A stretch of DNA of 64,000 nt from Syntrophobacterales bacterium (GTDB lineage Bacteria > Desulfobacterota > Desulfobaccia > Desulfobaccales > 0-14-0-80-60-11), in NCBI GenBank assembly GCA_020060385.1, contig JAGVAH010000044.1, positions 1 to 64,000 on the forward strand, given 5' to 3'. Under the pieces are notes generated by a model that had not been told where the DNA came from, did no database searches, and saw only the letters and a list, made by a program, of their open reading frames with translations. Position 1 is the stretch's first letter. Each line of letters begins with the position of its first letter. This document shows positions 16,415 to 35,813 of this stretch, one piece after another. The translations under genes and the position numbers were made by a program.

Positions 16415-16504
16415 ACGGCACCCAGCTTTCTTGATCCCAGGGGGGCCGGGGTCTACGACCCCGGAGGAGCCCTCAAGTCCCTGCCACGGGGACCCGGGCC
16501 TTAA

Positions 16505-16671
16505 CAGATGGGCAGGTCTTCTGACTTCCGGATCATCCTCATCCCTGCGCCTTCCCGTTTCCTTCAAAGAAACAGTGGCTTATCGCAGGTTTCGTCCCCG
16601 GTTACAGCGGCGGGACCGTGCCGGCTTTCAACCGGCTTCCCTATTAAACCCCACTGGGGGTACCCATCTTT
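16505..16671 (-). promoter_or_regulatory. Cobalamin (B12) riboswitch aptamer
   Basis: Read on the minus strand, the element shows the hallmark segments in order: P1 arm AGATGGG, TTTAATAGGGAAGCCGGT, a P4-like GCCGGCACGGTCCCGCC, CTGTAACC, GCCACTG, GGGAAGGCGC, and the B12 box GATCCGGAAGTCAGAAGACC followed by TGCCCATCT closing P1. Spacing and order agree with the known class. It controls the 86-residue gene at 16067-16327. Confidence 0.95.
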
Positions 16672-16767
16672 TCTAGGTATACAGCATAAGGGGAACCCCC
16701 GCCCCTGTCAAGGGAAAATCCGCCCCTTTGGGGCCTGATATCCGGCCCGGGACCATGGGGCCCCCAA

Positions 16768-34415: not shown

Positions 34416-34649
34416 CGGCCTATCCTCATGTTATGTCTAATTATTTTTCTTTAAACTCCCTTACAGGGCCAATGGTTTAAAAGAGACACAAATGCGTATG
34501 CCGACATATTCTGCCTGATTTCCTTATAAAATTCAAATGGCTTGCCAATTCTCATCCAGGCCGCCTCTTTTCCTATTTTCAAGGAATTCTTTTTAACCAC
34601 GCTCCCTCCCCTCCCCCTTGCTTTCTCCCTGATGATGCTTACTAGTATA

Positions 34650-35011
34650 ATTGCCGGGAAGTTCAGTCCCAGCACCATAGGGGTTAGGGGTAGGCGGCTT
34701 GAGGCCGGGCCCCGAAGGGTAGGGCCGCCCGCGGGATTGAAACTCTAGGCGATCTGCTTCGGTTAAGAGCAACAGCCGGTCCGGCCCAAATTTAACCAGG
34801 CCCGGCTGGGCGCTGATTGCCGGTAGCGGCAATGGCTGCCGGCTCTGCGGCGGAAGCAGAGGCAGTGACCACGGAACCAGAGACGTAAGATTGAGTCCGG
34901 CGTTACTTTCCCCTTTAAAGGTGGAAAGAGGTTTCGTGGAGTGGGGAAGACCGGGAATTCCGGATGGTTGTAATTAGTTAAGGAAGTATCCATCCGGATT
35001 CCCGGCTTCCC
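34650..35011 (+). ncRNA. Putative structured RNA, copy 1
   Basis: About 360 nt without a supported gene that can fold into a multi-stem RNA. Pairs seen: TTCAGTCCC (34662-34670) with GGGATTGAA (34733-34741); hairpin GATTGCC/GGCAATG (34815-34834); CAGCCGG with CCGGCTG; CCACGGAACC (34869-34878) with GGTTTCGTGG (34930-34939); and a terminal stem whose 3' arm ends CCCGGCTTCCC at 35011. Copy 2, 565 bp away, keeps these stems with compensatory changes. Two G-U pairs here would be C-A mismatches on the other strand, so the plus strand is the likely RNA. A TAGTATAAT (-10-like) precedes it and a T-rich tail follows. Confidence 0.65.
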
Positions 35012-35211
35012 TTTCGCCTTTTTGCCCCAGTTTTTTCCCGCATACCCCAAATTCCCCGGCGAACTGGGAACGCCTCATCAGTCCAAGTCTGTGGCACCAT
35101 CGCCTCTCTCCGGGGGCCCCGGACCCGCGTCATTCTGCCGCTAGCAATTTTTTTCCAAAAATTTTTTCCCTCCCCCCTTGTTTTTCTCCCAAGGATGTTT
35201 ACCAATATATG

Positions 35212-35574
35212 AGCCGAGACAATCAGTCCGGGCGCCGGCAAGGTGAACGGGAGACGACCTGCGGGTCGCACCCTAAAGCGGGTGGAGGGTCGCTCGCGGG
35301 ACTGAAGGTCATGGCAACCTGCTTCGGCCCCGAGCAACAGCCGGTCCGACCCAATTAACAACTAGTGGCCGGCTGGGCGCTGATCGCCGGCCGCGGCGAT
35401 AGATGCCGGCTCCGCTGCGGAAGCAGAGGCAGTAGCCACGAAACTTCGGGACGTAGTTAAGAGCCCGGTGGCGCTTCGCATCTGGCGGAGAGCAGGGTTT
35501 CGTGGACCGGGGAAGCCCGGGCAGCCCGGCTGGTTTACCTCCTGGAGAGGACAACCCCGGGGCCCGGCTTCCCC
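35212..35574 (+). ncRNA. Putative structured RNA, copy 2
   Basis: A second diverged copy of the element at 34650-35011, in the same orientation. Corresponding stems: TCAGTCC (35223-35229) with GGACTGA (35299-35305); ATCGCC (35383-35388) with GGCGAT (35395-35400), where copy 1 has ATTGCC/GGCAAT, a true two-sided change; CCACGAAAC (35436-35444) with GTTTCGTGG (35497-35505); terminal stem GGGGAAGCC...GGCTTCCCC ending 35574. Long unchanged blocks include GAGCAACAGCCGGTCCG and GGAAGCAGAGGCAGT. Upstream CCCCCCTTGTTTTTCTCCC and a TATA-like box are also shared, so each copy may have its own promoter. RNase P, tmRNA and 6S RNA were considered and do not fit. Confidence 0.65.
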
Positions 35575-35813
35575 TTCTCTGTTTGGCCCCTGCTTTATTC
35601 CCCCTCAGGAAAATCTCCTCCGGAAGAAATCTCCCCCCAAGACTTGATGAATCCGGGCCAGGATTAATCACCAGCGCCTCGGGGGAAATGCAGAAATAGA
35701 AAAACCGTAAATCATTTCCAATTCTTATGACAATTGGTATAACTGGGCAGCATGCAGTCCGGGGTGTGGAGAAGGGCCTCTCTCTACCCCAAACCACGGA
35801 TTAACGGAGCCTG

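Follow-up and report, generated by a model that had tools for sequence, protein, structure and literature searches.

A tandem pair of structured RNAs with a covarying pseudoknot, from a clade-limited family outside Rfam

The 64,000-nucleotide window analysed here contains a gene-free gap at positions 34416–35813, flanked in the ORF listing by a 128-aa and a 182-aa open reading frame, which raises the question of what this stretch encodes. Two related elements lie within the gap as direct copies on the plus strand, with starts 565–567 bp apart, as recognized in the preliminary description, which proposed a tandem pair of a large structured RNA in approximately 1.4 kb lacking a convincing gene. 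The copies are 80–86% identical within gap-free blocks and 66% identical across the whole element, and each folds better than its dinucleotide shuffles (z = -6.9 for copy 1 and -4.5 for copy 2). Among relatives, BLAST similarity mostly spans from a CCCCTTG box to a U-run, and we thus regard the element as a unit with sharp edges. In agreement with the earlier statement that no known RNA matches, searches of the region with Rfam 15, at the gathering score and at E-values up to 10, returned only chance miRNA-type matches, and a literature search among open-licence PMC papers found no paper describing the RNA. The sole Rfam 15 match in the window is a cobalamin riboswitch at 16494–16682 on the minus strand (127 bits). 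We consider it probable that the region comprises two paralogous genes for a stand-alone ncRNA of ~370 nt, belonging to a non-Rfam family found here only in one class. The family itself, new, structured and clade-limited, is considered real, and judging from the sequences its members are very likely transcribed from the plus strand as independent units.

Comparison of the copies establishes for both a single predicted modular fold, composed of P1, P2, a pseudoknot, P3 and a long 3' hairpin that carries a U-run. Copy 1 (WIN_1, ~370 nt) spans 34650–35023 on the plus strand, as defined by homology to 21 other copies, the shuffle z-score and the covarying structure, its 5' end being estimated and its 3' end set at the U-run; copy 2 (WIN_2, ~375 nt) spans 35210–35585 on the same strand on the corresponding evidence. 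Domain 1 of copy 1 (34662–34741) is closed by P1, formed by TTCAGTCCC (34662–34670) and GGGATTGAA (34733–34741), and that of copy 2 (35223–35304) by TCAGTCC (35223–35229) and GGACTGA (35298–35304). Domain 2 encompasses helices 7–11 and extends over 34754–34859 in copy 1, with its core at 35319–35426 in copy 2; P2 consists in both cases of CTGCTTC and GAAGCAG (34754–34760 with 34853–34859, and 35319–35325 with 35420–35426). The two domains are linked by a pseudoknot, in which the loop region of domain 1 pairs with the P2.1 loop of domain 2, namely GGGCCG (34722–34727) with CGGCCC (34782–34787) in copy 1 and GGGTCG (35287–35292) with CGACCC (35347–35352) in copy 2. Domain 3 follows at 34869–34939, where P3 pairs CCACGGAACC (34869–34878) with GGTTTCGTGG (34930–34939), and at 35436–35505, where it pairs CCACGAAAC (35436–35444) with GTTTCGTGG (35497–35505). 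The RNA ends in a long, terminator-like hairpin, which is located at 34943–35023 in copy 1 (GGGGAAG.../CTTCCCT, with the T-run at 35019–35023) and at 35509–35585 in copy 2 (GGGGAAG at 35509–35515 with CTTCCCC at 35568–35574, followed by a T-rich tail).

The hand-curated structure comprises 80 base pairs in 14 helices, one of which is the pseudoknot, and was evaluated on an alignment of 22 full-length sequences. In this structure, which derives from the same 22 sequences used for counting, 91.8% of cells are paired, compared with 29–51% when the partners are slid by 1–3 columns. Both-side changes are present in 38 of the 80 pairs (51 cells), as against 11.6 ± 2.5 pairs and 14.0 ± 3.1 cells in shuffles, and none of 500 shuffles matches the observed counts; the aligned sequences represent a narrow clade including paralogues and are hence non-independent. 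Since the slid control retains this kinship, the covariation is not due to relatedness alone; all-pairs single-column covariation is, by comparison, too confounded by kinship to use. Within P1 (helix 3), 89.5% of cells are paired and 7 of 10 pairs carry both-side changes, with corresponding values of 89.4% and 4 of 6 for the pseudoknot (helix 6), whereas pairing reaches 97.0% in P3 (helix 12) and 89.9% in the 3' hairpin (helix 14). The pseudoknot, which is absent from the preliminary description, varies in a coordinated fashion, with GGGTTG/TAACCC in G001 in addition to the variants of copies 1 and 2, and is weakened or lost in the g6 copies. The most conserved part of the RNA is domain 2, with P2 and two inner hairpins.

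The compensatory changes seen earlier between the two copies are thus borne out across the 22 homologues, with some rearrangement of the individual stems. The change of ATTGCC/GGCAAT to ATCGCC/GGCGAT is real and corresponds to helix P2.2. The GGCGGC/GCCGCC stem proposed for copy 1 is not maintained across the family, in which the helix is formed by CGGC(C)/GGCCG; the GCCGCC strand of the proposed stem overlaps the strand of the pseudoknot. The stem identified here as P3 of copy 1 is indeed very well conserved, but its changes are mostly one-sided.

Immediately upstream of domain 1, all full-length copies carry a CCCTTG-type box together with an A/T-rich box, consistent with the conserved upstream segment and -10-like box noted previously. 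In the window, these regions extend over 34614–34651 for copy 1 (CCCCTTGCTTTC ... TACTAGTATAAT) and 35174–35209 for copy 2 (CCCCTTGTTTTTC ... TACCAATATA), both on the plus strand, with the T/A-rich box located downstream of the CCCTTG-type box and the arrangement conserved in 22 copies. At the other end, the hairpin GGGGAAG.../...CTTCCCC is followed by a T-rich stretch in every full-length copy. On the basis of position and conservation, the upstream box is a putative promoter and the 3' hairpin a putative terminator. A consensus sigma-70 scanner flagged no promoter site at the copies, the box failing the strict sigma-70 spacing, and a terminator scanner did not flag the 3' hairpin, the loop of which is too large for the rule applied by the scanner.

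The search of related genomes suggested in the preliminary description, performed with BLAST and a covariance model of the core, recovered a total of 22 full-length copies, distributed over 12 genomes that belong to a single bacterial family. Each of the seven genomes in the window's genus contains two or three clustered copies, and BLAST located further copies in genus g2 (three genomes) and genus g8 (one genome); the covariance model confirmed the BLAST copies and added two diverged ones in g6. A tree separates several diverged paralogue lineages inside the window's genus, and diverged paralogues are maintained in all seven of its genomes. No copy is detectable in several complete genomes from this family, and the RNA therefore appears not to be universally required; the region downstream of hisB in copy-less genomes likewise yielded no convincing match. 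Outside the class, which comprises the same 29 genomes as the order, no confident match was obtained in 395 sampled genomes of the phylum, under stricter filters that may miss weak relatives. A weak match in G046, from another family of the phylum (23.7 bits), was judged to be due to chance, and weak matches of model R2 in G005, G006 and G021, as well as a third in G011 (E 0.5–0.9), were not recovered by R3.

In addition to the full-length copies, two shortened and diverged relatives of a mobile type were found. One is present in the window's own genome (G000:C140:60340–60495, corresponding to L229:1841–1996, minus strand; 24.9 bits), where it lies at one end of a short, roughly 9-kb element that encodes a tyrosine integrase and a primase/helicase. 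It begins straight at P2, without domain 1, and was detected by a model retrained with the weak match in G023, a genome of a sister family. The G023 relative itself (contig C81, L228, 649–799, minus strand) scores 27.3 bits with a model naive to it and adjoins a DUF1599 gene, approximately 1 kb from a large CRISPR array, the repeat of which matches Rfam CRISPR-DR9, and a type I-C-like cas operon. We examined a possible CRISPR link and consider it incidental, the array being near the G023 relative and at none of the other loci scanned. The two relatives retain domain 2, have in common an aligned block of 134 nt (59 bits, the best of 200 shuffles reaching 34.6) as well as TTGCTTTGGCCCYGAGC, and resemble the main family in short collinear pieces, such as CACGAAACGTTTCGGACGA against CACGGAACGTTTCGGACGA. 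On its own, either model score is marginal, and the folding of the two relatives is no better than that of shuffles; because the conserved pieces are shared and collinear, however, we regard both as homologues.

Comparison with characterized large RNAs reveals partial resemblance. As a stand-alone, highly structured chromosomal ncRNA of anaerobes or extremophiles, the RNA is comparable to OLE. OLE differs in being larger (~600 nt compared with ~370 nt), in having Gram-positive bacteria as its hosts and in dimerizing as RNA and assembling into an RNP (PMC9723947, PMC12286853). GOLLD and ROOL are likewise large ornate RNAs with pseudoknots, which form RNA-only cages and are encoded in phage or prophage genomes, often close to tRNA islands, with GOLLD often exceeding 800 nt (PMC12286853). 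The present family parallels them in having one relative in an integrated element, but is mostly chromosomal, has no phage or plasmid match by BLAST and lacks tRNAs at the ten loci that were scanned; at ~370 nt, the element is also smaller than the OLE, GOLLD and ROOL size range in which it was originally placed. The raiA motif RNA (ModT) is similarly a conserved chromosomal ncRNA with a complex structure and a role in trans, whereas its hosts are Bacillota and other phyla (PMC11706538). None of the Rfam 15 covariance models for OLE, GOLLD, ROOL and raiA matches the element. Type A RNase P RNA (RF00010) is similar in length and also has several domains and pseudoknots, but its model does not match the region and a full RNase P RNA is encoded separately in the same genome (G000:C56:1053–1416).

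The genes surrounding the copies bear on whether the RNA acts on its neighbours. In three genera the element is positioned near hisB, downstream and on the same strand, and in both the window and G018 the second copy follows the first. Elsewhere, the next gene is spermidine-synthase-like and on the opposite strand (copy a in G013 and G014), a chemoreceptor gene (G013, G014 and G016, with copy b on the same strand in G013 and G014), an oppositely oriented ThiF-like gene (G002), a gene for a Vsr nuclease (G011_b), or a gene for a P-type ATPase or a phosphoesterase. The downstream genes therefore differ in identity and strand, which supports action in trans and is unfit for a leader of one regulon.

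Several other explanations of the locus were weighed against that of two stand-alone RNA genes. Stop-free stretches on the minus strand, with open frames of ~70–125 codons, overlap most copies and could indicate that the opposite strand encodes a protein, a possibility to which we assign a negligible probability. Indeed, coding is refuted by the lack of three-base periodicity in the variability (permutation p = 0.62), by indels that are multiples of three in only 13 of 138 cases, the other 125 breaking the frame, and by a longest open frame that changes strand and phase from copy to copy, whereas the stems covary. This combination of a conserved covarying structure and no coding signal is what is seen in structured bacterial ncRNAs generally. 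Alternatively, the element could act in cis as a leader (a riboswitch or attenuator), with an intrinsic terminator at its end and the downstream gene under its control. All copies have a terminator-like hairpin at the 3' end, a same-strand gene lies within a few hundred bases downstream of some of them (the chemoreceptor gene in G013/G014 and vsr after G011_b), and tandem leaders exist. We nevertheless consider this unlikely: copy 1 precedes copy 2 rather than a gene, copy a in G013 and G014 and the G002 copy precede opposite-strand genes, and those downstream genes that share the strand are mutually unrelated, a placement that differs from that of a riboswitch or leader. Moreover, distances to the downstream gene reach 600–700 nt, and no alternative anti-terminator pairing is seen.

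Slightly less probable still is an origin in mobile DNA, whereby the element would be an RNA or structured DNA site of integrative elements that has been left behind or domesticated and marks a hot spot of gene insertion. Such an origin would account for the relative within the integrase/primase element of G000:C140, for the proximity of the G023 relative to a DUF1599 gene of phage type and to a CRISPR locus of type I-C, and for the variable genes between chromosomal copies, among them those for nucleases of the Mrr and Vsr types close to copies in G019 and G011. The chromosomal copies, however, occupy a conserved locus downstream of hisB in the three genera, have been under long-term selection at the RNA level and are not adjoined by an integrase or transposase. 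Viral contigs provided no confirmed match, pattern scans giving either none or two chance matches inside protein-coding contigs, without support from the model. The last alternative, in which the element would be a highly diverged version of a known RNA, with a functional replacement for 6S RNA as the most plausible case, appears remote. Like the present RNA, 6S is a stand-alone RNA, and paralogues within one genome are known in other bacteria. The Rfam 6S model (RF00013) has no match in the region or anywhere in the family's 22 genomes, but this says little, because the same model recovers 6S in only 5 of 14 control genomes. The architecture is also different: 6S is ~180 nt in length and forms one long rod with a central bubble, whereas several separate domains and a pseudoknot are found here. 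Other known RNAs fare no better, with RNase P separately present in 16 of the 22 genomes and neither ARAGORN, which found no tmRNA or tRNA in the window, nor Rfam returning a tmRNA match. We note that the missing 6S match across the family could represent either a gap in the model or a real absence.

For the stand-alone RNA that we favour, the most likely role would be that of a trans-acting scaffold or regulatory RNA. Each copy would be transcribed from its own promoter, stop at its own terminator and act in trans. As a guess from analogy, the pseudoknotted core formed by domains 1 and 2 may be the working part, serving as a compact scaffold for binding a protein or further copies of itself, whereas domain 3 and the terminator hairpin would stabilize the RNA. 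The analysis revealed no conserved protein partner. The diverged paralogues, of which there are two or three per genome, might represent specialized versions, and the shortened relative in the integrated element a captured or rival version. A bolder variant, to which we attach little weight, would be a new large structured RNA class acting as a ribozyme or an RNA-only assembly, the latter having recently been described for OLE, ROOL and GOLLD, with 2–3 specialized paralogues and a short, element-borne version that interferes with it or borrows from it. There are few large structured RNA classes with no assigned function, and every one of these has started a line of work. The compact size, covarying pseudoknot and natural sets of paralogues of the present family constitute a ready-made mutational series, and the pairing of host and element versions provides a means of probing the role of such RNAs. 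The family is also an addition to a bacterial class that has received little study and is mostly uncultured.

Two further features of the neighbourhoods were observed. In several relatives (L033, L034 and L035), single genes (spermidine-synthase-like and chemoreceptor) are situated between RNA copies, resembling the flanks of a hot spot of gene exchange. In G013, a 581-aa protein is encoded directly upstream of copy a (L035:5786–7531, plus strand), which matches only PHROG 25374, a group of unknown function.
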